From: a virus
IMG/VR virus record: IMGVR_UViG_3300047629_000024
Location: 1 to 37,556 of that record
Length of the DNA: 37,556 nt
Direction: 5' to 3' (one strand)
Shown one piece after another: positions 2,907 to 37,033 of the stretch (position 1 is the first letter of the stretch; every line of letters begins with the position of its first letter). A model generated the notes under the pieces. The model was not told the DNA's origin, did no database searches, and worked only from the letters and a program-made list of their open reading frames with translations. Position numbers and translations under genes: made by a program.

Positions 2907-4946
2907 TCACTTTTTCTTCCAACCCCATGATACAACACCGTTTATGCGTATTGTTATCGGATCATACCCGGACTTACGCATCGCCTCTCCGAAGCGTATT
3001 CCTGTACTTCCGTGTCTGTCTTTTACTTGCACTCCTATACGCCTCCACACATCATCACCCCTGACCTTTTCGGGGAATCCTAGGTCACATAAGGCCACAC
3101 GAACCGACTCACACATACCATCCTCTACCACCTTGGCCTGACGAGCATCAGACAATTCTGCCAGCAGCGGATTATCCACACCCACAAGGTACGACTCTCC
3201 GGCTCGAAAGGCCGCGAGAGCCTCGGCCAATAGCTGCTCACGGTGCTCGGTCAGCCAGCCAATGGCCGCTGCTCGCACCAGGACGGGCCAGAATCGACGA
3301 TTGGCTCCATCGGCTAGGTAGGTAGCGTCGTTGGTGCTCGCGACCAATACAGCCCGTCGTAGGAGCGTTACCCAGTTCCTGGCATAGGGTGCCCTGTATA
3401 CAGATTCCCTACACGTAACCCAGTCCTTGAACCGGTCGACGTTCTGCTTGGCGAGGTTCAGCTCCGGATAGTGCACCACCCAGGACGTGGCAGCGGCCAC
3501 ATCGGCCTGCGCATCGATGCCAGGTCTGTATGTGCCCAAACTCCTTACGTACGGGTCGCTACCGAACACCGTCTCGATTGCGCGGTTTTTACCGATGCCT
3601 TCGGCCCCCTCGAGAATGAGTACTCCGTCGGCCACGCAGCCAGGCTTCAGTGCCCTAGCTACGCATGAGATCATCCAGGCGCGCGCCACCATCCGCGTGA
3701 CCGACGTGTCGTCCGCTCCGAGTCCGACCGTGAGCCACGTCGACAGGCGACACGTCCCATCCCACACTGGCAAGCCCTCCACGAACTCGGTCAGCGAATC
3801 GTAGGAGTGCTCGTGCGCCGCGCGCAGCACCCCGCGGTGCACTTCCTCGATCCCCACCTGCAGCTTCGGTTCGCTCGACCATAGCCACCCCTGAATCTCG
3901 ACCTCGTGCTCGTCGGTGAGTGTCTGCCCGTCAGTCATCACCACCCGCTGCGTGAATCGGTCCCACCGTGGGCTCCGCTCGCGAAGCCGTACAGCAACGT
4001 TGCTCGCAATCTTCGCGAGTTTGCCGTCGTGCCAGATGAGTCCTGACGTGTCACGTGAAGCGGGTTTCGCCTCGAGTAGCTCTCGCTTTGGAGTGTCGCC
4101 GACTATTCGACCGTTTTGGATTTTGTGCAGCAGCTCCACATCGGACCATGGCGGCTGACACCTGGCGTTCCACGCAGCAAGCGCGGTCATCGCGTCAGCG
4201 TCATCCAGCCCAAATCCGCGTACCACGCGCTCGACCACGCGCATCGCGGTGTCGTGACCGCCAGCCCCATCGATGCTCACGTCCGCCTTGGCAAGCCATG
4301 CGCGCGCTCGAGCAACCGCGTCGCGACCCCCCGTAATGGCGGTCAGCGGCCGGACGAGGAGCGGCGTGAGCTCCGTGGCGAGCTCTGAGCACTGGACGAT
4401 CGCGTCGTCTCGCTCAACGCCGTCGACCGTAGCGCGCGGGGTCCAGAGAAACCGCGCAAGGTCTCGCGCGTGCGTATCGAGCACGAGCTCGCCTTCGGTT
4501 GGCGACGGGAGCCAAGCCCCGATGCGATGCGAGAGCGACGACCAGGCAACGCCGTATGCGTCTCGATCGACGAGGGGCCTGTCGAGACAAAAAAACAGAC
4601 GTAGACCCCGCGGGGTCCAGTGTGCGAGCGCGCACGGCGCTGTCGACAGGTCGATGCCGTCGCACGCGGCTCCGCGTGCGTGGTGCTGCCCCTCTAGGTG
4701 ATAGTCGACGTCGATCGCTACCACCTGCTGCGAGAGCCAGTGGTCGCCACGTCTGCGGCTCTCACGGTACTCCGCGCAGGCGACCCACCCGCCCGGCCCG
4801 TCGTGATTGACCAGAGCAACGGCGAGCGAGAGCGGGAGATTTGTTTCGTCGAGCTCGACCGTTACACCCACCGGTTTGTTTTTGCCCCTGCCCAGTGTGA
4901 TTTTTGCCACGGAGCCCAGTCTCAGCAGTCGGTCGCTTGACGTCAA
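2907..4946 (-). CDS. Primase-helicase, VirE/D5-like
   Basis: A 679-residue protein joining an archaeo-eukaryotic-type primase-like half and a VirE-like P-loop ATPase half. Primase-like motifs: AIDVDYH at 77-83 (DxD), AHWTPRGLRLFF at 108-119, and a later Asp/Arg region LDTHARDLARFLWTP. ATPase: GAEGIGKN at 447-454 (Walker A, with Asn where Ser/Thr is usual), HYPEL at 492-496 (Walker B-like), ASTND at 536-540 and NRRFWPV at 549-555. It would unwind and prime at the phage origin. The frame opens at TTG 4946, inside a palindrome; GTG 4910 is an alternative start. It is transcribed leftward, divergent from the early operon. Confidence 0.88.
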   Translation of the reverse strand: MTSSDRLLRLGSVAKITLGRGKNKPVGVTVELDETNLPLSLAVALVNHDGPGGWVACAEYRESRRRGDHWLSQQVVAIDVDYHLEGQHHARGAACDGIDLSTAPCALAHWTPRGLRLFFCLDRPLVDRDAYGVAWSSLSHRIGAWLPSPTEGELVLDTHARDLARFLWTPRATVDGVERDDAIVQCSELATELTPLLVRPLTAITGGRDAVARARAWLAKADVSIDGAGGHDTAMRVVERVVRGFGLDDADAMTALAAWNARCQPPWSDVELLHKIQNGRIVGDTPKRELLEAKPASRDTSGLIWHDGKLAKIASNVAVRLRERSPRWDRFTQRVVMTDGQTLTDEHEVEIQGWLWSSEPKLQVGIEEVHRGVLRAAHEHSYDSLTEFVEGLPVWDGTCRLSTWLTVGLGADDTSVTRMVARAWMISCVARALKPGCVADGVLILEGAEGIGKNRAIETVFGSDPYVRSLGTYRPGIDAQADVAAATSWVVHYPELNLAKQNVDRFKDWVTCRESVYRAPYARNWVTLLRRAVLVASTNDATYLADGANRRFWPVLVRAAAIGWLTEHREQLLAEALAAFRAGESYLVGVDNPLLAELSDARQAKVVEDGMCESVRVALCDLGFPEKVRGDDVWRRIGVQVKDRHGSTGIRFGEAMRKSGYDPITIRINGVVSWGWKKK

Positions 4947-6463: not shown

Positions 6464-6645
6464 ACGACGAGGAAAAGATCCAGTGGTCGCTGTTGAGCGG
6501 CGCACAGACGATGAGCGGTCCCGCGCCGGAATGCGTCATCTGTGGTGTGCCAACGTGGTACGGCGAAGAGTGTTCGAATTGCCTAACTGTCCGTACGCGA
6601 CGCGAATCTATCTGGCTGCGCCTGGCGCGTTGGGTTGTTCGATGA
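6460..6645 (+). CDS. Small zinc-ribbon protein, early
   Basis: A 61-residue protein with CVICG and CSNC about 14 residues apart (zinc ribbon) and a basic aromatic C-terminus (RRESIWLRLARWVVR) that could be an amphipathic helix. The start overlaps the preceding stop as ATGA, and its own stop overlaps the next start the same way. Function unknown. Confidence 0.65.
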   Translation: MNDEEKIQWSLLSGAQTMSGPAPECVICGVPTWYGEECSNCLTVRTRRESIWLRLARWVVR

Positions 6646-6710
6646 ACGACGACAACGATTGGGACTCCGAGCGACCTGTGGACTACTGGGACGACGAAGG
6701 GAGCCATTAG
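6642..6710 (+). CDS. 22-residue acidic microprotein
   Basis: A tiny frame linked to its upstream neighbour by an ATGA overlap and ending exactly at the base before the nuclease start. Its 22 residues include nine Asp/Glu and three Trp/Tyr (DDNDWDSE, DYWDDE), DNA-mimic-like in charge. It may be a real peptide, a translational coupler for the nuclease, or debris from rearrangement of the nuclease gene that starts next. Confidence 0.45.
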   Translation: MNDDNDWDSERPVDYWDDEGSH

Positions 6711-7580
6711 ATGGGCCGTTGGCTGGTCGAGCACAAGACGACGAGCGAGGACATATCGACTGGTAGTGTGTACTTCCGGCGCCTGCGTCTGGACGCGCAG
6801 ATCGGGGTGTACCTGCAGGCGGAACCGGGTGCGGAGGGCGTCATCTACGACGTGCTACGGAAGCCTGCCGAGAGGCCGAAGGTCGGCGAGTCGGCGGACG
6901 CCTTCGGAGCGCGCGTGCTTGCCAAAATTCGGTCTGACCCGGACCGCTACTATCGACGCGCAAAGGTTGTACGGCTCGAGTCGGACCGCGAGGAGCTCGC
7001 GCGCGATGTGTGGCAGACGTCGCGGCACATCATCGCGGCGCGACGCCTCAAGCAGTACCCGCGTAACCCTGACTCGTGTTTCCAATTTCAGCGCGCGTGC
7101 GACTACCTGCCCGTGTGCACTGGAGAGGTAAGCCTGGACGACGAGGCGCTGTACGTCACGCGAGAGCCGCACTCGGAGTTGTGGGCCGTTGGTGCTGCGG
7201 GCGACGCACTCACTCAGTCCAGTCTCAAGACCTGGAGAGCGTGCCCGCGACGTTATGAGCATCGCTACGTGGATGGCCGCGTGCCTCGTGCAGAGGACGG
7301 CGAGGCGCTCAGGATGGGTCGCTCGATTCATGATGCTCTGGAGAGTCTTTTTCTTGGCAAGAGCGTGGATGACTGCTTGACCGCTCTCGACAGCTCTGAT
7401 ATCTACGAGTACGCAAAGTCAGCGGCCATGGTGGCCGGCTATGTGGAGTACTGGGGACGCCCGTCAAACGTAATCGGTACAGAGGTCGAATTCTGCGTAC
7501 CGCTCAGGAATCCGGACGGGTCCGCGTCTAGGACGTTCGTTCTGCGCGGGAAGATCGATGCGATCGTGGAGGCCGAATGA
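6711..7580 (+). CDS. PD-(D/E)XK nuclease, motifs circularly permuted
   Basis: A 289-residue Cas4/RecB-like exonuclease with its halves swapped. In this family the order is SxxxxxxCP, then GxxxH, GxxD, (D/E)xK, QxxxY and finally clustered Cys. Here the protein opens with VEHKTT (Glu7, Lys9), Gln30 and Tyr34, then Cys123, Cys130 and Cys136; only afterwards come SSLKTWRACPRRY (Cys178), GRSIHDALE (His207) and finally GKIDAIVE (Asp283), six residues from the C-terminus. All conserved parts are present once, and the ends would join naturally in one loop. The four Cys may hold an Fe-S cluster. Coupled by ATGA to the Sak4-like gene, so it likely resects DNA for recombination. Confidence 0.8.
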   Translation: MGRWLVEHKTTSEDISTGSVYFRRLRLDAQIGVYLQAEPGAEGVIYDVLRKPAERPKVGESADAFGARVLAKIRSDPDRYYRRAKVVRLESDREELARDVWQTSRHIIAARRLKQYPRNPDSCFQFQRACDYLPVCTGEVSLDDEALYVTREPHSELWAVGAAGDALTQSSLKTWRACPRRYEHRYVDGRVPRAEDGEALRMGRSIHDALESLFLGKSVDDCLTALDSSDIYEYAKSAAMVAGYVEYWGRPSNVIGTEVEFCVPLRNPDGSASRTFVLRGKIDAIVEAE

Positions 7581-8410
7581 ACGTCATCAGGGGGAAGAAA
7601 GATGTCGCAGATCGGAGTCTGATTTACGGACCACCGGGCGTTGGCAAAAGCACGTGGGCGACGGGCGCGCCGGGTACGCTGGCTATAGATGGTGAGGCGG
7701 GTCTGAGCCAGATCGGGTGCGACCGGGTGGAGCTCGCCAGTGGGTGGGATGAGTCTCTGCGCCTCGTCCGTCAGGCGCTCGCAAGCGACTGTAAGCTGCT
7801 TGCGATCGATACGGTGGATGCTCTCGAAACTCGCGCCGTGGCGCATGTGTGCGCTAGCCACAAAAAAAAGAGCCTCGCCGACTTTGGGTACGGCGACGGG
7901 TTCGAGCTGCTCTCATCTGCCTGGCTCGAACTCCTGGGCCTGCTCGAGCAAGGGCGCGCGCGGGGGACTGAAGTGATTCTCGTCGCTCATGTGCAGCAAA
8001 AAAACGTGAACGACCCGACGATCGGCGCTTACGAGAAGTACATTCCGCAGCTCAGCAAGCGCTGCTGGAATCTTACGCATAGGTGGTGCGACAACGTGTT
8101 TTTTGCTGACTACGAAAGGGGTCTGGTCAATGAGCGTGCGGTACTTACGGGAGCTCGCCAGCTTCATGTGGTGGCTGCGAGTGGGTTCGATGCCAAAAAC
8201 CGGTACGGCGTGGTCGGTCCGCTGCCGCTCGAGAGGGCGGCATGGGACGAGGCAAAGAGGCCGCCGGAGGCTCTGGGGGCGATCGGAGTTCTGGTTGCTC
8301 GGTACCCCGAGCTGGCAGAGAAAGTGACGACAGCGTTGAAATTGTCGCCTGCCAACATGGTGTTGGAGGGTCTGCTCGAATGGGAGAAGGACAAGGAGAA
8401 GAGCAAATGA
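7577..8410 (+). CDS. Sak4-like RecA-family recombination ATPase
   Basis: A 277-residue RecA-like core (AAA_24/Sak4 type). Walker A is GPPGVGKST at 18-26, Walker B is LLAIDTVDAL at 74-83, and there is a later VILVAHVQQK strand with the conserved His region. Sak4 proteins assist single-strand annealing during phage recombination, generally with an SSB. Between a nuclease and a possible ssDNA-binding protein this is a recombination module. Start ATGA-overlaps the nuclease stop; the stop ATGA-overlaps the next start. Confidence 0.85.
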   Translation: MNVIRGKKDVADRSLIYGPPGVGKSTWATGAPGTLAIDGEAGLSQIGCDRVELASGWDESLRLVRQALASDCKLLAIDTVDALETRAVAHVCASHKKKSLADFGYGDGFELLSSAWLELLGLLEQGRARGTEVILVAHVQQKNVNDPTIGAYEKYIPQLSKRCWNLTHRWCDNVFFADYERGLVNERAVLTGARQLHVVAASGFDAKNRYGVVGPLPLERAAWDEAKRPPEALGAIGVLVARYPELAEKVTTALKLSPANMVLEGLLEWEKDKEKSK

Positions 8411-8841
8411 TCGCAGAGGGAACGTATCTGGCAACGGCCGTATCGGCCGCGAACTTCATCAACGCAGGGCAGAAGGGCACGCCAGGCGTGGAGGTTGAGT
8501 TCCAGCTCGACGAGGGGCCCAACACCGGCGAGCTCATTACCTGGACTGGATGGCTGACGGACGCCGCGCGCGCGCGCACATCAGAGGCGCTGGCCGCGTG
8601 CGGCTACGACGGCGCGCATGACGAGAGTGTGCGTGGCCGCAAGGCCAAGTTGGTCATACGGCACGAGGAGTACGAAGGGCGAACGCGTGCAAGGGTCGCG
8701 TTCATCAATGACGTCGATCGCATGAGCGGCGCGAAGCCCATGTCTGCCGTCGAGAAGGCCGCCGCGAAGGAAGCGATCCGCGGGCTCGTGCTCTCTGCGA
8801 AAAGTGCTGTACGTGTGCCGGACACCAAAGTGAGGTTCTGA
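8407..8841 (+). CDS. Putative ssDNA-binding protein
   Basis: A 144-residue protein with a beta-rich N-terminal half (GTYLATAVSAANF, PGVEVEFQL, ELITWTGWLT) and KLVIRHEEYEGRTRARVAFINDV later, consistent with an OB-like fold. Its position directly after a Sak4-like gene is where phage SSB-like proteins usually lie. I see no acidic SSB tail; the end is basic and helical. Function is inferred mostly from context; DUF669-like proteins are the nearest comparison. Confidence 0.55.
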   Translation: MIAEGTYLATAVSAANFINAGQKGTPGVEVEFQLDEGPNTGELITWTGWLTDAARARTSEALAACGYDGAHDESVRGRKAKLVIRHEEYEGRTRARVAFINDVDRMSGAKPMSAVEKAAAKEAIRGLVLSAKSAVRVPDTKVRF

Positions 8842-8845
8842 CACC

Positions 8846-10306
8846 GTGGTCGAACTAAGGCAGTACCAGGCGGCAGCAATCGAGGGCCTGCGTGCGCATG
8901 TTCGCGCGGGGCGTCGACGCATCTGCCTGGTCTGTCCTACCGGAGGTGGCAAAACGGTCGTAGCGTCGGCGATCGTAGACAGCGCGCTGTCGCTCGGCTC
9001 GCGCGTGCTGTTCATCGTGCATCGGCGCGAGCTCGTGGACCAGGCGGTCACGCAGTTCGCGCGATGGGGAGTGATGGCCGGTGTCGAGCGCGGGGACGAC
9101 TCGCGTAGCAATCGACTGCTGCCTGTGCAGGTAGGGACGGTGCAGACGTTGTCTCGTCGGGACAGGTGTCCGGCGGATATCGTGTTCGTGGACGAATGCC
9201 ATCGTGTGGCTGGCGACTCATACGTCGAGCTGCTTTCGTCCTACCCTGAGGCCACCATCATCGGCCTGACCGCGACACCGTGCCGGCTGGATGGCAAGCC
9301 GCTGGGTAATCACTTCGACGCTCTCGAGGCTGTCGCGACGTACTCTCAGCTCATCGCGGATGGCTTTCTCGCGGCGCCCGTGGTGTACGCAGCGAAACGA
9401 GCGCCCGACCTGACGGGCGTACGCAGGCGCGCGGGCGATTACTCCGAGGAGGAACTGGAGCGTGCCATGCTCGACCCACACGTGGTGGGTGACGTGCTCG
9501 AGGCTTGGAGGTCGCGTGCCGAGGGCCGGTCGACTGTAATCTTCGCGGTCGGGGTGGGGCATTCGGTTGCCATGCGTGATCAGTTCCGTGCTGCGGGGGT
9601 CTCCTGCGAGCATCTGGACGCGTCCACGCCAGAGCCCGAGCGGGCGAACATCCTCGCTGCGGTCCGCGGCGGCGAGGTGATGTGCGTGACCAACGTTGGG
9701 ATCCTGACCGAGGGATGGGACGAGCCTCGAGTCAAGTGCTGCGTGATGGCTCGGCCGACGTTGTCTCTGGGGCTCTACATGCAGTGCGTCGGCCGAATTC
9801 TGCGGCCGTGGAACGGCGTGCAGCCCGTCGTGCTCGATCACTCGGGCAACACGTCGCGGCATGGTCTACCGCATGAGGACAGGCACTGGAGTCTCGAGAC
9901 AGCCACCGAACGAGCCCCGCGGACCAAGATTCCGTATCGGATGTGTCCAGCGTGCTACGCGTACGTGCTCAAAAACCCGTGCGAGCACTGCGGCCATCAG
10001 ACAGTCGTTCAGACGCGAGAATTACGTATAGAGGATGGCTCACTGGAGGAAGTCACGTTGACGGACAAGGATCCACGGCGTGATGCGTACGATAAGTGGC
10101 TTTTCACCGCGCTCAACCGTGGGTACAAGCCTGGGTACGCGGCTGCGCAGTATAAGGAAGCCTACGGCGAATGGCCGCCGTACCATTGGTCAACAAAAGC
10201 GAAAGCACTGTTTGAAGGAGACGAGCAATGGCGAAAGCGATTCGAGTATCGGGAGCGGATGCGGGCAGCGTGGGGCAGCGACGAACCCTCGAAGCCGACT
10301 ACGTGA
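8846..10306 (+). CDS. SF2 DNA/RNA helicase (DECH)
   Basis: A 486-residue superfamily-2 helicase. Q-like motif RQYQ at 5-8; motif I PTGGGKT at 31-37; motif Ia HRRELVDQ at 59-66; motif II DECH at 116-119; motif III TATP at 142-145; C-terminal RecA domain with TEGWDEP and motif VI QCVGRILRPW. A zinc-binding pair follows (CPAC, CEHCGH at about 372-391), then a basic tail. UvsW/RecG-like remodelling of recombination intermediates is plausible. Start GTG lies 4 bases after the preceding stop; the end overlaps the VRR-NUC gene by 79 bases. Confidence 0.9.
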   Translation: MVELRQYQAAAIEGLRAHVRAGRRRICLVCPTGGGKTVVASAIVDSALSLGSRVLFIVHRRELVDQAVTQFARWGVMAGVERGDDSRSNRLLPVQVGTVQTLSRRDRCPADIVFVDECHRVAGDSYVELLSSYPEATIIGLTATPCRLDGKPLGNHFDALEAVATYSQLIADGFLAAPVVYAAKRAPDLTGVRRRAGDYSEEELERAMLDPHVVGDVLEAWRSRAEGRSTVIFAVGVGHSVAMRDQFRAAGVSCEHLDASTPEPERANILAAVRGGEVMCVTNVGILTEGWDEPRVKCCVMARPTLSLGLYMQCVGRILRPWNGVQPVVLDHSGNTSRHGLPHEDRHWSLETATERAPRTKIPYRMCPACYAYVLKNPCEHCGHQTVVQTRELRIEDGSLEEVTLTDKDPRRDAYDKWLFTALNRGYKPGYAAAQYKEAYGEWPPYHWSTKAKALFEGDEQWRKRFEYRERMRAAWGSDEPSKPTT

Positions 10307-11909: not shown

Positions 11910-11986
11910 GCATACGCATCTGGGCCCGCGTCTGGGACCTCGTCAGGGCCCGCGTCAGTGACCGCGTACAGAAGGAGCGGACATGA
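11906..11986 (+). CDS. Arg-Val tetrapeptide-repeat microprotein 1
   Basis: A 26-residue frame: about five tetrads of the form R-V-x-x (RIWA, RVWD, LVRA, RVSD, RVQK) and tail QKERT. The GTG start overlaps the DUF6745 stop and its own stop overlaps the next ATG. Its last codons, CAG AAG GAG, contain the ribosome site for gene 2, so the tail residues are partly dictated by that signal. It may be a truncated family member. Confidence 0.6.
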   Translation: MSIRIWARVWDLVRARVSDRVQKERT

Positions 11987-12159
11987 GCGCTCGTGTCTAC
12001 GCCCACGTCAGAGGCCATGTCTGGGACCGCGTCAGGGCTCGCGCATGGGAACGTGTCGGGGGCCGCGTCGGGGTATGTGTCAGGGCCCGCGTCTGTAGCC
12101 GTGTCTGGGGCCGCGTCTACGACCGCGTCAGGGGCCACGTGCGTAGAGAGCAGCCGTGA
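11983..12159 (+). CDS. Arg-Val tetrapeptide-repeat protein 2
   Basis: A 58-residue protein starting MSARV and then made of about 13 tetrads (RVYA, HVRG, HVWD, RVRA ... RVWG, RVYD). The second position is almost always Val; the first is mostly Arg; the third varies among Trp, Arg, Gly, Tyr, Ser and Cys; the fourth is Asp, Gly or Ala. ATGA and GTGA overlaps couple it to both neighbours. Synonymous use of CGT versus CGC and GTA versus GTC supports coding on this strand. Confidence 0.7.
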   Translation: MSARVYAHVRGHVWDRVRARAWERVGGRVGVCVRARVCSRVWGRVYDRVRGHVRREQP

Positions 12160-12374
12160 GCACACGAGTTAGCGACAGCGTCTGGGACCGCGTCTGGGGC
12201 CGCGTCAGGGCCCGCATCTGGGGCCGCGTCAGTTCCCGCGTCAGTGACCGCGTCTGGGGCCGCGTAAGGGGCCGCGTCAGAGACTGCGTCAGGGCCCGCG
12301 TCTGGGACCGCGTCAGGGACCGCGTCGGGGTACGTGTCAGGGCCAGTGCCCGCTCCCAGAAGGAGAAGCCGTGA
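12156..12374 (+). CDS. Arg-Val tetrapeptide-repeat protein 3
   Basis: A 72-residue protein, GTG start, with about 15 tetrads (RVSD, SVWD, RVWG, RVRA, RIWG, RVSS ... RVRD, RVGV), the most regular of the set. It begins MSTRVSDSV, nearly the same as gene 4. The tail SQKEKP encodes AAGGAG, the ribosome site of gene 4. Very basic overall, with Arg paired with Asp at a spacing of three residues. No signal peptide or membrane segment. Confidence 0.72.
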   Translation: MSTRVSDSVWDRVWGRVRARIWGRVSSRVSDRVWGRVRGRVRDCVRARVWDRVRDRVGVRVRASARSQKEKP

Positions 12375-12559
12375 GCACACGAGTTCGCGACAGCGTATGT
12401 GACCGCGTCGGGGTACTGACCTGGGAACGTACCAGGGTACGTGTCAGGGCCCGCGTCAGTGACCGCGTCTGGGGCCGCATAATGGGTCGCTTATGGGACG
12501 GCGTTTGGGCTAGCGTTATCGACCAAGTCAGGGATCGTATCAATGGTGCGAAGTCATGA
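12371..12559 (+). CDS. Arg-Val tetrapeptide-repeat protein 4
   Basis: A 62-residue protein, GTG start, MSTRVRDSV N-terminus. Its first 9 codons are almost identical at DNA level to those of gene 3, pointing to recent tandem duplication. About 14 tetrads; the second half is more diverged, with Ile, Leu and Thr replacing Val (RIMG, RLWD, GVWA, SVID, RING). Coupled to both neighbours by 4-base overlaps. Confidence 0.72.
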   Translation: MSTRVRDSVCDRVGVLTWERTRVRVRARVSDRVWGRIMGRLWDGVWASVIDQVRDRINGAKS

Positions 12560-12777
12560 GCGTCCGCGTCTGTTTCGTTCATGCTCATGTACACGATCTG
12601 GTCCACGCGCGTGTATGCAGCCGCATCAACGCCAGCGTCAGGGATAGTATTGACGATCGAGTATGGGACCGCGTCAGGAACCGCATATGGGATGGCATTG
12701 TCGTCATCATTGTCGTCCGCGTATACAGACGCGTCATTCGGGTAGCACGAAAAGAATCTTCGATGGTGACTCGTTGA
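12556..12777 (+). CDS. Arg-Val repeat protein 5, diverged
   Basis: A 73-residue protein starting MSVRV. The first part uses His (VHAH, VHDL, VHAR) in place of Arg, one 3-residue step shifts the register, and the C-terminus becomes a hydrophobic stretch (IVVIIVVRVYRRVIRV) that could touch a membrane. It is the last early gene; its final 44 bases overlap the end of the endolysin gene on the opposite strand, so the two main transcripts meet here. Confidence 0.68.
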   Translation: MSVRVCFVHAHVHDLVHARVCSRINASVRDSIDDRVWDRVRNRIWDGIVVIIVVRVYRRVIRVARKESSMVTR

Positions 12778-18983: not shown

Positions 18984-20707
18984 TGGCCCGCCGGCTTGTT
19001 GTACTGGTCACCGGTACCGGGATCGGGCGGTCGCTGGTACTCGCGGATGATCTGGTACTTGCGCTCCATTTCATTCTTTTTCGCGTTGTAAACGAGCATG
19101 GGCTTGACTTCGTGCTGCGCCGAATTGCGTATGGCGTTCTCGCTCGCGCGCATCGCGCCCGCGTCTATCTGCTTGAGCGCGTCGGCGACGCCCGGAGTGA
19201 GCGTGAGCGTTCGGCCGCCAGCGGCCTTTTGGTACTGTTCGAAGATTCCCTTACCGCCCTTGCCGCCGCCCTCTATCTCGCTGGCGGCCACAACCTTTTG
19301 GGCAGCGTCGTACGCCTTGACCCAATCGATGCCGCGTTGCGTGAGCGGCGTCAGAAGCAGCTTGCCGACGGAGCCTATCGCCTGGTGCACGTCATTGGCC
19401 TTGTTGACTTCTGCAAGCACCTTCTCGCGGTCCTCTTTCGGCACCGTCACGTGCCGGCCATCGGGGAGTGCGATCACTTCGTTTGTGGGCACATCACTCG
19501 CGACCGCTCCGCCTGGGCCTCCAGGCCCACCACCACCGGTCTGCACCGTCTTCTCCGGCTGCCACTGCGTGAGCACGGAATGCATCTTCGCCTGCTCTGC
19601 ATCGATGTTTGCGGCCAGCCCCTGGTACTGAGCCTGCAACATCGGAGAGTGGGCCTTCTTCACTTCGGCATCACCGAGCAGCTTGTACCCCTCGAGCTGA
19701 CGCGCGTACTCCGCCGCATCCGCGACGCGCTCGTCGCCGAACCGGGCGCGCATCTGAGCAAGCCCCTGCGCTGCGCCCTTGGCCGCCTCTTGCTTGCCAG
19801 CGAGATTCTCGCGCTGCACCTGGATGTTTCGCCCGATACTCTCGTTGATGATGTCCATCGCTGCGTTCTGTCTGCCATGGGTGAGACTGCGCCCGAACTC
19901 GCCGATCGCTACAGCGATCGTCGCCAGGGCCTTCGTCCCTAGGCCCCATTGCGTCGTCGGGTCGACAATTTTACCGGTCGCGGCTTCGCTCTGCATGCGG
20001 TCGTAGTCGGCCTGCTGTGCGTCGAGCGCCTTGCGGCGAGCCGCCTCGCCTCCCTGCATGTTCGCGTTCGCCGAAGCCTCTTTCGCGGCAAGGCCAGCCA
20101 TTGCCCCGGCACCCGCCTCGTTCTCCCCAACGGCCGCCTTGCCCTCGGCTTCGTTCGCGGCCTTCTTCTCGGAAAGCGCCGTATCGAACTCGCCGCGATT
20201 CTCCGGCGACACGAGCGACACGCCATGCGCCGGGATGGTCGTGGTCGTGGGCCCAGCAGGAGCCGCAGCTGGCGTCGCGGCTTGGTCCTCCGCAGAACCT
20301 GCGGTCTTATATGGGACGTTCGGGGCTGCTGGCGCGGCAGGCCCAGCATCTGCGGGCGCCGGCGGCGATGCTGTCGGCAGCACGGGCTGCCCACCCATTA
20401 GCCGGCCGGCAAAGCCACCCAGCGAGCCGGCGGCTTGGCCCATCGAACCGCCTGGGATGCCGATTGAACGCAGAAAGGCGTTGGACTGCTGCGGGGGTGG
20501 AGCAGGCGGAGGCGGGGGTGCAGGCGGCGGTGTCGACGGCATCGCGGCCATGGGCATGGGCGTTTGCGGCATGGGCGCCTGCGGCATCTGCGTTCCCTGC
20601 AGCGCTGCGGGAAGGTTCGCGCCGAGTACGTTGCCCTGCTGCGGAGGGATGATCCCACGACGGACAAGGTCCGCGATGAGGGCCGGACTGATTCCTGAAA
20701 AGCTCAT
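18980..20707 (-). CDS. Internal/ejection protein, Pro-rich N-terminus
   Basis: A 575-residue protein. Residues 40-75 are Pro/Met/Ala-rich (PMPQTPMPMA, then a PPP-rich linker), followed by a Gly/Ala-rich region and, from about residue 195 to 400, a long helical, coiled-coil-prone part rich in Ala, Glu and Lys. Coupled by ATGA on both sides to two larger proteins. With them it forms a likely ejection complex. No peptidoglycan hydrolase motif is seen. Confidence 0.62.
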   Translation of the reverse strand: MSFSGISPALIADLVRRGIIPPQQGNVLGANLPAALQGTQMPQAPMPQTPMPMAAMPSTPPPAPPPPPAPPPQQSNAFLRSIGIPGGSMGQAAGSLGGFAGRLMGGQPVLPTASPPAPADAGPAAPAAPNVPYKTAGSAEDQAATPAAAPAGPTTTTIPAHGVSLVSPENRGEFDTALSEKKAANEAEGKAAVGENEAGAGAMAGLAAKEASANANMQGGEAARRKALDAQQADYDRMQSEAATGKIVDPTTQWGLGTKALATIAVAIGEFGRSLTHGRQNAAMDIINESIGRNIQVQRENLAGKQEAAKGAAQGLAQMRARFGDERVADAAEYARQLEGYKLLGDAEVKKAHSPMLQAQYQGLAANIDAEQAKMHSVLTQWQPEKTVQTGGGGPGGPGGAVASDVPTNEVIALPDGRHVTVPKEDREKVLAEVNKANDVHQAIGSVGKLLLTPLTQRGIDWVKAYDAAQKVVAASEIEGGGKGGKGIFEQYQKAAGGRTLTLTPGVADALKQIDAGAMRASENAIRNSAQHEVKPMLVYNAKKNEMERKYQIIREYQRPPDPGTGDQYNKPAGQ

Positions 20708-23700
20708 GCGAGACTCCTTCCGATCGCGCCACCTGCCGCGCCACCTGCCGCCGCGCCGCCGACGGCACCCGCGGGACCGCCAAACGCCCCGACAATACCG
20801 CCCAGTACCGCGCCCGTGCCAGAAGCGATCGCTCCGAACATGTTCGCGTTGTTTGCCGCGTTCTGAGCTGCAATCCCCGCAGCCGTTGACGCGTTGAATT
20901 CGTTCGCGCCGAGACCCGCCTGCTGCGCGCCAAACGCACTCTGCTGGTACTGCGCCATCTGCTGGGCCGCCTCCTGCTCGTACTGAGCCTGCAACGTCAT
21001 CCCGGCCGATGTGCCCTGCATTCCCAGCTGCGCCCCCTGCCCGTACGCCGCGAGCCCCTGATTCTGCGCGGCCAGCTGCCCGGACTGTCCCATCTGCAGG
21101 CCTCCCAGGCCGTAGTTTTCGCCCATCTGCGTCGCCTGCAGGGCGCCAGTCTGCCCGTACTGCATGCCCGCCAGACCGTACTGAGCTCCCAGATTCGCGG
21201 CCCCAAGCTGACCCTGCTGGGCCAATTGATTGCCCGCAAGCTGGTACTGATTCCCCATGTTAGCTGCAGCGAGCTGTCCAGTCTGGCCGTACTGCATGCC
21301 AGCAAGACCGTACTGGTTACCCATGTTGGCCATCGTGGCCTGGCCCTGCTGGCCCATCTGCAGGCCGGCTAGGCCGTATTGATTGCCCATGTTGGCCATG
21401 GCGGTCTGCCCACGCTGGCCAAGGTCAAGCCCAGCGAGGCCGCCCGTCTGCCCCATCTGCGCCGCAGTGAGCTGCCCGGTTTGCCCCATGTTGAGGCCAG
21501 CCATCTCGCCAGCCTGGCCGAGATTCGCGGCCGCCATCTGGCCTTGCTGCCCCAGACCGATACCGCCCTGTGCGTACTGATTCGCCATCTGCGCCGCGCC
21601 AAGCTGCCCTTGCGCGCCCGCGAGCGTCTCGCCCTGCCCGATCTGCTGCTCGGTTTGCCCGAGCCCCGCGACGCCCTGCGCAGACTGCTCGTACTGCCCT
21701 CGCGCCGTGGCCATCTCCTGCGCGCGCAGGATGCCTTGCTGCTGCACGTTCTGCTGCTGCATGGCTGCGCCCTGTTGGAGCGCGTTTCGCTGCGATTGCG
21801 CCAGGCCCGCCTCGCCGCGCGCGCTATTCGCAATCGCCATCTGCTGCTGCACGGCCTGCTCGTTGCCGGCAGACATCGCCAACTCAGCAGCGCTCGGCTG
21901 GGCACCAAACGCCGCGGACTTCATCAGGTCCAGGCCCGTGTATGCGTTGCCCAGCCCAGCGCCGGTTATCCCCTGCCCTACCCCCTGGATGCCCTGGCCC
22001 ATGCGCTGTACGCCGGCCATGTTCTGGCCCTGGGCTTGGCCCGTGTTTATCGCCAGATTCGCGAGGTTTTGCCCCTGCCCCTGGTATAGATTCCCGAGCT
22101 GCTGCCCCTGTTGCAGAGCTGCACCAGCCACTGCATGCCCCTGGGCCTGAGCTTGATTGCCAAGAGCCTGCCCCTGCGCCAGCTGTTGAGCCGCAAACTG
22201 GGTTCCCTGCTTTTCGTACGCGTTTCCAAGAGTCGCAGCCTGCGATTGCGCCTGATTCGAGAAGTTTTGCCCCTGCGCCTGGTACATGTTCCCAAGCGCG
22301 TTCGCCTGGGATTGCGCGGCATTCGAGAATGCGGCCCCCTGATTCGCGTAGGCGTTCCCAAGCGCGGCCGCCTGCGCCTGCGCTTGATTCCCGAAACTGT
22401 AACCGGCGTTCGCGAACTGCGAACCGAGTGCGGCTGCTTGGGCCTGCTGCGCCTGCGAGAATGCGTTGCCTTGCTGCTGAAACTGATTCGACAGACCCTG
22501 GCCGGTTTGCATGGCCTGAGCAGCGAAGTTACCACCCTGATTCTGGAATTGATTCCCTAGGTTTGCGTACTCCGCGCCCAGACCCTGCAGCCCCCTCTGA
22601 GCAGCCGCACCTTGCGCGGCGAGCGTGGCCCCTTGCGTCGCCCCCAAGGCTTCCGCTCCGCCCGCGATCTTCTGGCCGAGGTCCAGGTAGTACCCGGACA
22701 TCGCGTTGGCCGCGCCAGGGGTGCCGCCAAAGTACGCCTTGGGCTGACCCGCGATGTTGCCGAACGGGTCAGTCGTATAGCCCCCCTCCGGAGCTGGCAC
22801 ACCGACTCCTGGATACGGACTGTTCGCGCCGTACGTGTTCGCGGCAGAGGCGTTGATAGAGCCTTGGCTACGTTCGCCGGAGGTAGGCTGAGCGAAGCCG
22901 AGATTCCCAAATGGGTTGGCCGATAAATCCCCCGTAGGCTGGCCTGGCGAGCCAGCACCAGGCGCACCAGACGTATCGGTTGTCGGAACAAAGCTCCCGC
23001 CTTTTTGGCCAGGGACCCAATTCGCCGAAGTATCGTTTGAGCCGCCGCCCATGGTAACGCCACGCGTCGTCATGCTGCCAGGCGTCGGAGGAGTGGGCGG
23101 GCCACCCGGCAGGCCGTTCGGCAAGGTTGCTGAACGCACTTGAGTCGCGTACGAGCTCAGCGGGGGGCCCGGCGCGCCTGCCGGCCAGGGAATGTTCCCT
23201 GGATTGGTCGCGACCGCCGGCGGATTGTTCGTCGTAACGGGCTCGTTGTTGCCACCCGTGCGGAGCGCGTTGTAGCCGATCATCCCGTTGCCGAAGTTCG
23301 GCGTCGGTCCGCTTCCGGTCAGAAACTTGTTCGGATCGAAGTACGGCGCCCCAGTCGCAGACGCGGGACTGTACGCTGGCTGAGGAGGAGGGGGTGCTAC
23401 CGGAGGCACATACGCAGGGTAGGGGCCGGGTATGTAGGCTCCAGTAACCGGAGCTCCGGCGGCGGGGGGCCGAATGTTCGTGAGCAGCGCTGGATCGATG
23501 CCATTGGCTGCCGCAGAACCGGCCGGAAGAAGTCTTGTGGGGGCCGTCCCGTTCGCCCCGAGGTTCGACGGCAGGATCGTGGTCGGCCCAATCGGCGCCC
23601 CCGCGCGCGCGAGAATCGCCGGGTCAATCGCCGGCTGCTGCACCAATCCTACTGGACTTGGGGCCCCAAGTGACGGGCCAGGTAGCCCTCGGGCTGCGGG

Positions 23701-23721
23701 CGTATTTCGGCCGATGATCAT
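20704..23721 (-). CDS. Giant Gln-rich repeat ejection protein
   Basis: A 1005-residue protein of low complexity. Residues 1-330 are Pro/Gly/Asn-rich and disordered. Two arrays follow with a 22-residue period (two hendecads): about 378-556 (units like AALGNAYANQG/FSN) and about 704-890 (units like ANMGNQYGLAGMQYGQTGQ). Between them is a conserved-looking Gln/Ala helix region. The C-terminus (963-1003) is a glycine zipper, likely membrane-inserting. This suggests long amphipathic rods that open into a channel: an internal/ejection protein. Start ATGA-overlaps the tail protein stop. Confidence 0.65.
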   Translation of the reverse strand: MIIGRNTPAARGLPGPSLGAPSPVGLVQQPAIDPAILARAGAPIGPTTILPSNLGANGTAPTRLLPAGSAAANGIDPALLTNIRPPAAGAPVTGAYIPGPYPAYVPPVAPPPPQPAYSPASATGAPYFDPNKFLTGSGPTPNFGNGMIGYNALRTGGNNEPVTTNNPPAVATNPGNIPWPAGAPGPPLSSYATQVRSATLPNGLPGGPPTPPTPGSMTTRGVTMGGGSNDTSANWVPGQKGGSFVPTTDTSGAPGAGSPGQPTGDLSANPFGNLGFAQPTSGERSQGSINASAANTYGANSPYPGVGVPAPEGGYTTDPFGNIAGQPKAYFGGTPGAANAMSGYYLDLGQKIAGGAEALGATQGATLAAQGAAAQRGLQGLGAEYANLGNQFQNQGGNFAAQAMQTGQGLSNQFQQQGNAFSQAQQAQAAALGSQFANAGYSFGNQAQAQAAALGNAYANQGAAFSNAAQSQANALGNMYQAQGQNFSNQAQSQAATLGNAYEKQGTQFAAQQLAQGQALGNQAQAQGHAVAGAALQQGQQLGNLYQGQGQNLANLAINTGQAQGQNMAGVQRMGQGIQGVGQGITGAGLGNAYTGLDLMKSAAFGAQPSAAELAMSAGNEQAVQQQMAIANSARGEAGLAQSQRNALQQGAAMQQQNVQQQGILRAQEMATARGQYEQSAQGVAGLGQTEQQIGQGETLAGAQGQLGAAQMANQYAQGGIGLGQQGQMAAANLGQAGEMAGLNMGQTGQLTAAQMGQTGGLAGLDLGQRGQTAMANMGNQYGLAGLQMGQQGQATMANMGNQYGLAGMQYGQTGQLAAANMGNQYQLAGNQLAQQGQLGAANLGAQYGLAGMQYGQTGALQATQMGENYGLGGLQMGQSGQLAAQNQGLAAYGQGAQLGMQGTSAGMTLQAQYEQEAAQQMAQYQQSAFGAQQAGLGANEFNASTAAGIAAQNAANNANMFGAIASGTGAVLGGIVGAFGGPAGAVGGAAAGGAAGGAIGRSLA
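21052..21612 (-). repeat. 66-bp tandem repeats, array 2
   Basis: About eight imperfect 66-base units encoding 22 residues each, with the pattern G-Q-x-A-x-A-N-M-G-N-Q-Y-G-L-A-G-x-Q-x-G-Q. Near-identical neighbouring units (for instance those read through 21290-21430) suggest recent copying. Confidence 0.8.
22054..22590 (-). repeat. 66-bp tandem repeats, array 1
   Basis: About eight more diverged 22-residue units with the pattern A-x-x-L-G-N-x-Y-x-x-Q-G-x-x-F-x-x-Q-A-Q. Same period as array 2, but different consensus, so both arrays may derive from one ancestral double hendecad. Confidence 0.75.
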
Positions 23722-35301: not shown

Positions 35302-35648
35302 ACACTTCGCGTGAAGAATGGCGCCTACACTGGCGAGAGATTCGCGCCAGCAGGAGGACAACGCCGACACTGGAGAACACGCGGGACACCATTCGCCTGA
35401 GCTACTGCAACTTTACATACCGATCGCGACCACTCGAGGATGTCATTCGGCTGAACTACTGCGACTCGACATACCGGCAACGGCTCACCGTGCACGAGCT
35501 GATGCGGTACGATGCGCGGCGCGGTACGCGGCGCAGCATACGGGAGCTTGCTGCGGCGGTCGGATTCGATATCGACAAGGCGCGCGTTTTTCGATCGCTC
35601 ATCTACGACAACAGGCCGTTATTCATGCTGCTTCCCAAGAAGACCTAG
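35298..35648 (+). CDS. Putative HTH protein with 18-residue duplication
   Basis: A 116-residue basic protein, GTG start overlapping the preceding stop. Residues about 30-65 contain a tandem 18-residue repeat ([16 protein letters not shown] and [16 protein letters not shown]). The C-terminal half has a helix-turn-helix look ([22 protein letters not shown]). It may regulate the cassette promoter. Its stop overlaps the TerL stop on the other strand by 4 bases, so this cassette fits tightly against the late genes. Confidence 0.65.
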
Positions 35649-37033
35649 TACCCGATACGCTCCCAAGGGTCGGCACTTTCCTCGGTCGTGAGCTGCCGCT
35701 CTAGCTCTCGCTCTTCTCGCTCCCACTTCTCGATCATCGTCCGTGGCTTGGGCGCGATGGGCTCCTCGAGGTACGCAAAAGTTGCACGCCACCCGTACAA
35801 CGCAGCGTCTGCACAGTGATTCTCGTGTCCAGGCGCCTCATGTTCACCCTTCTCGTCCCACGGCAGGCGCAGCCATTCGTCGATGAGTGGCTGGCACGTA
35901 GGCGCACACACGACGAGCTCGCCACGGGAAAGCACGCCATTCAGCAGGCGCACGTAGCCGTACTTGTTTACCTTCTCGGCCGGCTCAATCGGCAGGCTCT
36001 TGCGCCGTATCAGCTCCTCGGCGATGCCCTTGCCGAGTCCACCGACGTCCCCCACGATCTTTGTGAACGGGTACTTGGCCTGCAGCGGGACTATGTCGGC
36101 GTGAATCTCATCCACGCTCTGGCCAGCCCGTTTGAAGGCCTCGAGGACATACACGCGGCGCTCGCCCGTGGCCCACCCTAGCACGACGTAGCCGTTCGGG
36201 GAGGTCACACCGAAGTCGAGCCCCAGGACGAAATTGCCGATCCCCAGGCGCTTGCACAGGCTCGCCGGCGTCTCGTCGATAACGTTCCGAGCTTCGTCAA
36301 ACGCATACACGTTGCCGATGCCGTCCTGAATCCACTCGCCCAGCATCTGACGGCGCGTGATGGGGTCCGCACGGTCCAGCTGCCTCTCGTAGTCCGACTG
36401 GTCCACGCTGGGGTTGTCGCGGAACGTCGCCGGAACGAACGCGCATCCGGGCGCCGGCTTCTGTATAAACCGCTCGTACACCCACCGGTGACCGACGCCC
36501 CCGGGATTGGTCGCCCCACGCATCGCGCTCGGCACCGCGAACCCAGCCAGACGGCGGATGCGGGTGAACATGAACCTGTACCAGTTCTCGGGGAAGTGCG
36601 TAAGCTCATCAAAATACACGCGATTCCACTCTGCCGATTGGTACCTCGAGCGGTCCTCCCACCGATCGAAGTACCCGAACTCGAGAGTGGCCCCTGAGGG
36701 GAACGTCCAGCGAGAGTCGCTGCCGCTCCAACGCGCATCCGTCGAGTCGAGCCATTCGTGCGACCGGTCCAATAGCGCGCCCGCGAGCACAAGCTCCCGA
36801 TGTGTTCGCCTCAGGATGAGCGCCGAATACCCCGGCACATTCACATACTTGAGCGAATCCATAAGAATGGCATCGCTCTTGCCACCAGCCGCGGCGCCCC
36901 CGTACAGCGCCTCTAGGCAATCCAGCGCGAGAAACCTCTGCTGCGTCGGCCAGGGCTTGTGGACCGCCCAGTCTCGCCCCGCAGTCAGCCTACGCCGCTT
37001 CAACTCCGCAGCGAGCAGCTGCGCACGGCTCAA
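35645..37033 (-). CDS. terL: Terminase large subunit
   Basis: A 462-residue DNA-packaging motor. ATPase: GGAAAGGKS at 45-53 (Walker A), VYFDELTHF at 139-147 (Walker B with catalytic Glu143), ATNPGG at 174-179 (coupling motif). Nuclease (RNase H fold): GLDFG with Asp273, VGDVGG with Asp329, and HCADA with Asp409. It pumps DNA through the portal and cuts concatemers. Full family length. Start ATG overlaps the preceding stop (ATGA). The gene ends tail-to-tail with the antisense cassette. Confidence 0.95.
   Translation of the reverse strand: MSRAQLLAAELKRRRLTAGRDWAVHKPWPTQQRFLALDCLEALYGGAAAGGKSDAILMDSLKYVNVPGYSALILRRTHRELVLAGALLDRSHEWLDSTDARWSGSDSRWTFPSGATLEFGYFDRWEDRSRYQSAEWNRVYFDELTHFPENWYRFMFTRIRRLAGFAVPSAMRGATNPGGVGHRWVYERFIQKPAPGCAFVPATFRDNPSVDQSDYERQLDRADPITRRQMLGEWIQDGIGNVYAFDEARNVIDETPASLCKRLGIGNFVLGLDFGVTSPNGYVVLGWATGERRVYVLEAFKRAGQSVDEIHADIVPLQAKYPFTKIVGDVGGLGKGIAEELIRRKSLPIEPAEKVNKYGYVRLLNGVLSRGELVVCAPTCQPLIDEWLRLPWDEKGEHEAPGHENHCADAALYGWRATFAYLEEPIAPKPRTMIEKWEREERELERQLTTEESADPWERIGY

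Follow-up and report, generated by a model that had tools for sequence, protein, structure and literature searches.

The gene at positions 6711-7580 of the window, a 37,556-nucleotide stretch of viral DNA, very probably encodes a circularly permuted PD-(D/E)XK exonuclease of the RecB/AddB/Cas4 type, with a predicted Fe-S cluster and a presumed role as end-resecting partner of the Sak4-like protein encoded directly downstream. The two half-domains of the family are both present and are encoded in reverse order: the half that is C-terminal in unpermuted relatives (half B) comes first and the half that is N-terminal in those relatives (half A) comes second. The relevant features of the locus are as follows.

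6697-6703, plus strand: AAGGGAG, a Shine-Dalgarno-like sequence 7 nt upstream of the nuclease ATG (sequence).
6711-7580, plus strand: circularly permuted (type I, order B-A) PD-(D/E)XK Fe-S exonuclease, predicted, 289 residues (profiles and predicted structure).
6711-7181, plus strand: half B, residues 1-157, equivalent to the C-terminal half of unpermuted relatives (half profiles and conservation).
7182-7208, plus strand: linker, residues 158-166, between the ancestral C- and N-termini (linker comparison and flanking short strands in the model).
7209-7577, plus strand: half A, residues 167-289, equivalent to the N-terminal half of unpermuted relatives (half profiles and conservation).
7577-8410, plus strand: Sak4-like single-stranded-DNA-annealing ATPase (phrog_124, E 4e-30; AAA_24, E 7e-34).
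8413-8841, plus strand: open reading frame at the position of the annotated single-stranded-DNA-binding protein (SSB) gene of phage Tunturi_2, assigned by position and without a family match of its own.
8846-10306, plus strand: DEAD/DEAH-type DNA helicase (phrog_16, E 7e-87).

The start codon directly follows an in-frame TAG and the stop overlaps the start of the next gene (ATGA). The deduced protein matched Pfam PDDEXK_1 (PF12705) with an E value of 2e-13 (51.2 bits against a cut-off of 22) and phrog_1218, an exonuclease family, with an E value of 1e-24, in both cases as two stretches. Since the best phrog_1218 stretch aligned residues 167-287 with profile positions 10-149 of 364, the start of the profile is located at the C-terminal end of the protein. 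Profiles were also built for half A (CP, GxxxH and GxxD motifs) and half B (ExK, QxxxY and three cysteines), and these assigned residues 4-157 to half B and residues 167-286 to half A (E 2e-37). Half B contains the ExK strand (E7, K9), QxxxY (Q30, Y34), C123, C130 and C136 and the HxEL motif at residues 154-157; half A contains LTxS, C178, GxxxH (G203, H207) and GxxD (D283). The placement of the catalytic and cysteine motifs had been read correctly from the sequence alone. The complete catalytic set of GxxxH, GxxD, (D/E)xK and QxxxY (H207, D283, E7, K9, Q30 and Y34) is thus present and conserved across relatives. The four cysteines are likewise present and invariant, with chain positions reversed relative to the family norm of one N-terminal and three C-terminal. 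Since the motif order is B then A and not the CP, GxxxH, GxxD, ExK, QxxxY, Cys3 order of the family, the protein is classed as a permuted variant and not as an ordinary family member.

Two other assignments were considered and set aside. The Cas4 of CRISPR adaptation does not describe the gene: the cas4 profile TIGR00372 left the window nuclease unmatched and matched only one relative, at locus L005, weakly (20.5 bits against a cut-off of 65), and the neighbours are a Sak4-like gene and a helicase. An NCBIfam radical-SAM match (16 bits against a cut-off of 400) was regarded as noise.

Among phage genomes, the best tblastn match was Tunturiibacter phage Tunturi_2, with 30% identity to window residues 3-214 in an unbroken alignment that runs through the Cys cluster and on as far as the CP and GxxxH motifs. 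Gp56 of that phage (345 residues) has its N-terminus after the GxxxH helix and its C-terminus just behind that helix, so a permuted relative with a different cut point exists in a cultured phage. Single-sequence scans of viral contigs returned no relatives; alignment-based scans of the contigs did find them and, together with one scan of bacterial genomes, yielded approximately 270 loci (numbered with the prefix L), in which element order was read for each open reading frame with the half-A and half-B profiles. Distinct reading frames comprised 95 of unpermuted order A-B, 11 of order B-A (type I) and about 77 (at least 76) of order A2-B-A1 (type II, in which the cut follows the GxxxH helix), proportions that depend on the queries and do not represent abundances; the few remaining frames were truncated or odd in element order. 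Type I consists of the window gene and those at L004, L005, L065-L068, L070, L213, L225 and L233, and type II includes the cultured Acidobacteriota phages Tunturi 1 and 2. The bacterial-genome scan gave five loci. One of them, L166, was type II and seems to be a viral contig that was binned into a metagenome-assembled genome; the others were unpermuted or broken. The unpermuted form sought in related phages was therefore found in many of them, the closest to the window nuclease being that at L008 (46% identity), and against these homologues the window protein has each element once in a shifted order, the pattern of a circular permutant. The sequence-only reading had treated the permuted nuclease as a lone oddity, which proved too modest given that permutation recurs within the family. 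These relatives also bear on the possibility that assembly scrambled a gene of ordinary order. As the window comes from a virus record of metagenomic origin, such an error is conceivable; against it stand ten other type I sequences on other contigs, dozens of type II sequences including two cultured phage genomes, the continuity of the Sak4 gene with the nuclease reading frame, intact key residues and purifying selection in the clade, which together leave an assembly artefact hardly credible.

Conservation was scored after the halves had been re-joined in one common order. Every type I sequence (11 of 11) and every type II sequence (77 of 77) has the ten key residues (C178, H207, D283, E/D7, K9, Q30, Y34, C123, C130 and C136), as do the close unpermuted sequences (67 of 67) apart from a single change of H to D. 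Among type I genes of the clade to which the window gene belongs, dN/dS was 0.09-0.28, with the window gene itself left out because its closest pair was too diverged; in the L070 type I group the values were 0.18-0.56. Since the key residues are retained and dN/dS is below 1, these sequence comparisons indicate that type I genes encode enzymes under purifying selection and are not debris. On another reading, a tandem duplication left the permuted gene behind to decay, and its product has lost nuclease activity; in favour of this, most relatives are longer than the window protein, which lacks approximately 36 residues of a variable insertion found at L004 and L005. The unpermuted protein at L006 is, however, likewise short in that region, and the full retention of catalytic and cysteine residues, dN/dS values well below 1 in the clade and a confidently predicted fold render decay very improbable.

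The structure of the window nuclease was predicted with AF2 from a 105-row alignment into which unpermuted relatives were entered as separate halves. The model is a single compact domain formed from both halves, with pLDDT 95.3 and pTM 0.89, compared with 91.4 and 0.86 for the unpermuted L006 protein, and its element order is a circular shift of that in the L006 model. A turn of two residues links strands 124-140 and 143-152 of L006 into a hairpin; their counterparts in the window model are the last (272-288) and first (2-11) strands. The short terminal strands of L006 (7-9 and 314-316) correspond to residues 165-167 and 148-150 of the window model, a pair joined by the linker. Structural alignment with VIA-align matched L006 to AdnA (Z 16.3, 225 residues), to ACE1 (Z 15.8, 234 residues) and to the phage exonuclease 3k93 (Z 9.2, model residues 3-282 on chain residues 3-222); lambda exonuclease gave Z 7.5. 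The window model reached Z of at most 4.5 against solved nucleases, with one half per alignment, as when residues 161-289 were placed on ACE1 8-160 (Z 4.3) and residues 1-115 on 3k93 104-222 (Z 3.4) by the same program. Since the aligner is order-dependent, matching of half at a time is the behaviour required of a permutant. A Foldseek search of the window model against the PDB gave nothing at E below 0.1, which is expected for a permutant and is no argument against the fold. One confident domain, the shifted element order and the half-only sequential alignments support the permutation reading, and the window nuclease is predicted to have the RecB/AddB/Cas4-type fold, with halves that superpose separately on solved structures.

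A broken relative raises the question of whether the halves must lie in one chain. At L023 (5098-6135) the TAA that closes half A is directly followed by an ATG, from which half B is read without a change of frame, and the split falls at the hairpin turn that holds the termini of type I proteins; with one case only, a functional enzyme of two chains and a lone nonsense mutation or error are both possible. The split suggests that halves may act as separate chains, so that in the window protein they might exchange between subunits of a domain-swapped dimer or ring with active sites combining different chains. Lambda exonuclease, a distant relative of the nuclease fold, is a ring. The single-chain model is nevertheless compact and confident, and such an exchange is considered improbable. 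Other broken loci are of a different kind. L050 and L056, examined as candidate unpermuted forms, were rejected as frameshifted or cut-off type II genes; at L050 (3310-4330) the type II exonuclease gene is broken across two overlapping frames, probably a sequencing or assembly frameshift since the near-identical gene at L020 is intact. At L169 (5508-6616), in a bacterial metagenome-assembled genome, an unpermuted relative lies in several frames adjoining a Sak4-like gene and may belong to a decaying prophage.

The chain order suggests how the permutation could be accommodated. The chain starts at the strand carrying E7 and K9, the second strand of the hairpin of unpermuted relatives, and ends on the first strand of that hairpin, carrying D283; the opening of this surface loop would have created the new chain ends. 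The old C-terminus, with three cysteines and HxEL, is joined through about nine residues to the old N-terminus, with LTxS and the fourth cysteine. In the RecB/AddB/Cas4 class the cluster is formed with one cysteine from one chain end and three from the other, and in ordinary relatives a cluster of this kind would clamp the ancestral termini together. Joining these termini with 8-14 residues would thus be harmless or of low cost, since the shared cluster would hold them in place.

Accepted routes to circular permutation are duplication, and fission with fusion (PMC3320104). The Sak4-like gene lies directly downstream in nearly all loci, permuted and unpermuted, including eight of the eight type I loci checked, and this shared position upstream of Sak4 indicates that the permutation arose in place. 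The proposed origin is a tandem duplication in place followed by loss of the outer halves. The in-place position and the three-part type II order fit duplication better than fission and fusion, and the split gene at L023 is what a fission route would need. A duplicated intermediate was sought, and no full tandem duplicate was present among the fetched loci, the split at the same loop being found instead; duplication followed by loss is for that reason put forward conditionally. A half-profile search of the flanks of type I genes found no duplication remnants, an absence in this sample that is compatible with duplication, and neither half profile scored above chance within 1.5 kb on either side of the window nuclease gene. 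The tiny frame at 6642-6710, suggested earlier to be a vestige of the event, had no homology to half A or half B in the profile search and is not supported as such. The overlap between the A2 and A1 segments of type II proteins, a possible footprint of duplication, scattered around zero.

The number of permutation events was evaluated with trees from L-INS-i alignments of the re-joined sequences in sets of 41 and 82 rows. In the 82-row tree the window gene groups with L004, L005, L065 and L066 (support 99/93), and L070, L213, L225 and L233 are placed elsewhere among unpermuted forms (97/92). An earlier pairing of the window gene with unpermuted L006 in a quick 100-row tree (SH-aLRT 91) was replaced, the L-INS-i alignments placing it with L004 and L005 (96/88 and 99/93). 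A single clade of all permuted forms was rejected (p about 1e-11). It may be asked whether one event accounts for all type I and one for all type II genes, with no repeats within a type. By the AU test, a single clade was acceptable for type II in the 41-row set (p 0.33) and for type I in the 82-row set (p 0.109), but for type I it was rejected in the 41-row set (p 0.013). Of 200 bootstrap trees for the 82-row set, 0% united all type I sequences and 1% all type II sequences. The junctions of the two type I groups also differ: the L070 group has an LPLLS-like linker stretch similar to the N-terminal sequence of L017 and other unpermuted relatives, and the window group is without this stretch. 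A single origin per type is accordingly possible though doubtful. Based on clade placement, the AU tests and the linker differences, at least two permutation events are firmly indicated by the sequences, at least three origins are favoured and four are possible. A more general proposal is that permutation in Sak4-linked phage Fe-S exonucleases has been recurrent, tolerated and perhaps selected, with at least four independent events at two preferred loops, eased by cluster-held termini, and a natural split at the same loop; we consider the case for this evenly balanced.

The Sak4-like gene overlaps the nuclease stop, the arrangement of an exonuclease-annealase recombination module, to which a possible SSB is added by position only. 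As a member of its class, the enzyme should depend on metal for its exonuclease activity and carry an Fe-S cluster; by resecting 5' ends it would make single-stranded ends for annealing by Sak4. Elsewhere the window encodes a primase/helicase-like protein (2907-4946, minus strand; phrog_256, E 4e-47) and a terminase large subunit (35645-37033, minus strand; phrog_979, E 8e-49), which support its origin from a tailed phage. The window also contains repeats. A 12-bp tandem array (GGGACCGCGTCA) of about 34 copies with 65% match occupies 11915-12534 and sits inside a 215-bp unit present in 1.8 copies. Its plus strand has short reading frames (12156-12374, 12371-12559 and 12556-12777) of VRDR-like tetrapeptides and its minus strand reads as PDA-rich repeats; comparison with PHROG gave no clear match. 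Repeats of 66 bp, 65-74% alike, lie at 21146-21442 inside a long minus-strand reading frame (20704-23721).

The fold and function assigned here are already known. The phrog_1218/PDDEXK_1 phage exonucleases have the same two half-domains, key residues and Sak4 neighbourhood as the window nuclease, in which the halves are reversed and the chain ends fall within the hairpin that connects the catalytic Asp strand to the Glu/Lys strand. Those of actinobacteriophages are often annotated as 'Cas4 family' or 'RecB-like'. The nuclease domains of AdnA and AddB, Cas4 and the Cas4-family ACE1, the nearest solved structures, share the predicted fold class and the four-Cys and PD-(D/E)XK motifs; they have the ordinary motif order, and the window nuclease aligns to them half at a time. 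Recurrent permutation is known in DNA methyltransferases, natural permutants for which duplicated intermediates are documented (PMC3320104) and which are also present in jumbo phages (PMC7824862). They likewise act on DNA, but their fold and chemistry are unrelated, and the nuclease loci gave no duplicated intermediate. The searchable literature, outside which most subscription papers lie, yielded no description of a permuted RecB/Cas4-like phage exonuclease, of its recurrence or of its split form. Permuted nucleases are likely under-annotated since order-dependent searches such as profile HMMs and Foldseek give half matches or miss them. Natural circular permutation that leaves an enzyme's active site complete and invariant is uncommon, and here it seems recurrent, at two loops, among closely related phage genes of a single family. 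The forms of this family (unpermuted, split and permuted in two ways) share genomic position and partner gene, a natural series for testing by which route permutation arises (duplication, or fission with fusion) and whether a protein becomes permutable when a metal cluster ties its termini. Another close known system is the exonuclease of Tunturi_1 and Tunturi_2, which is likewise permuted, although the paper on these phages makes no mention of it. It has in common with the window nuclease the junction of Cys cluster, HxEL, LTxS, fourth Cys and GxxxH helix and, unlike the window nuclease, is cut after that helix (A2-B-A1); as Tunturi 1 and 2 are cultured phages, they make the permutation testable.
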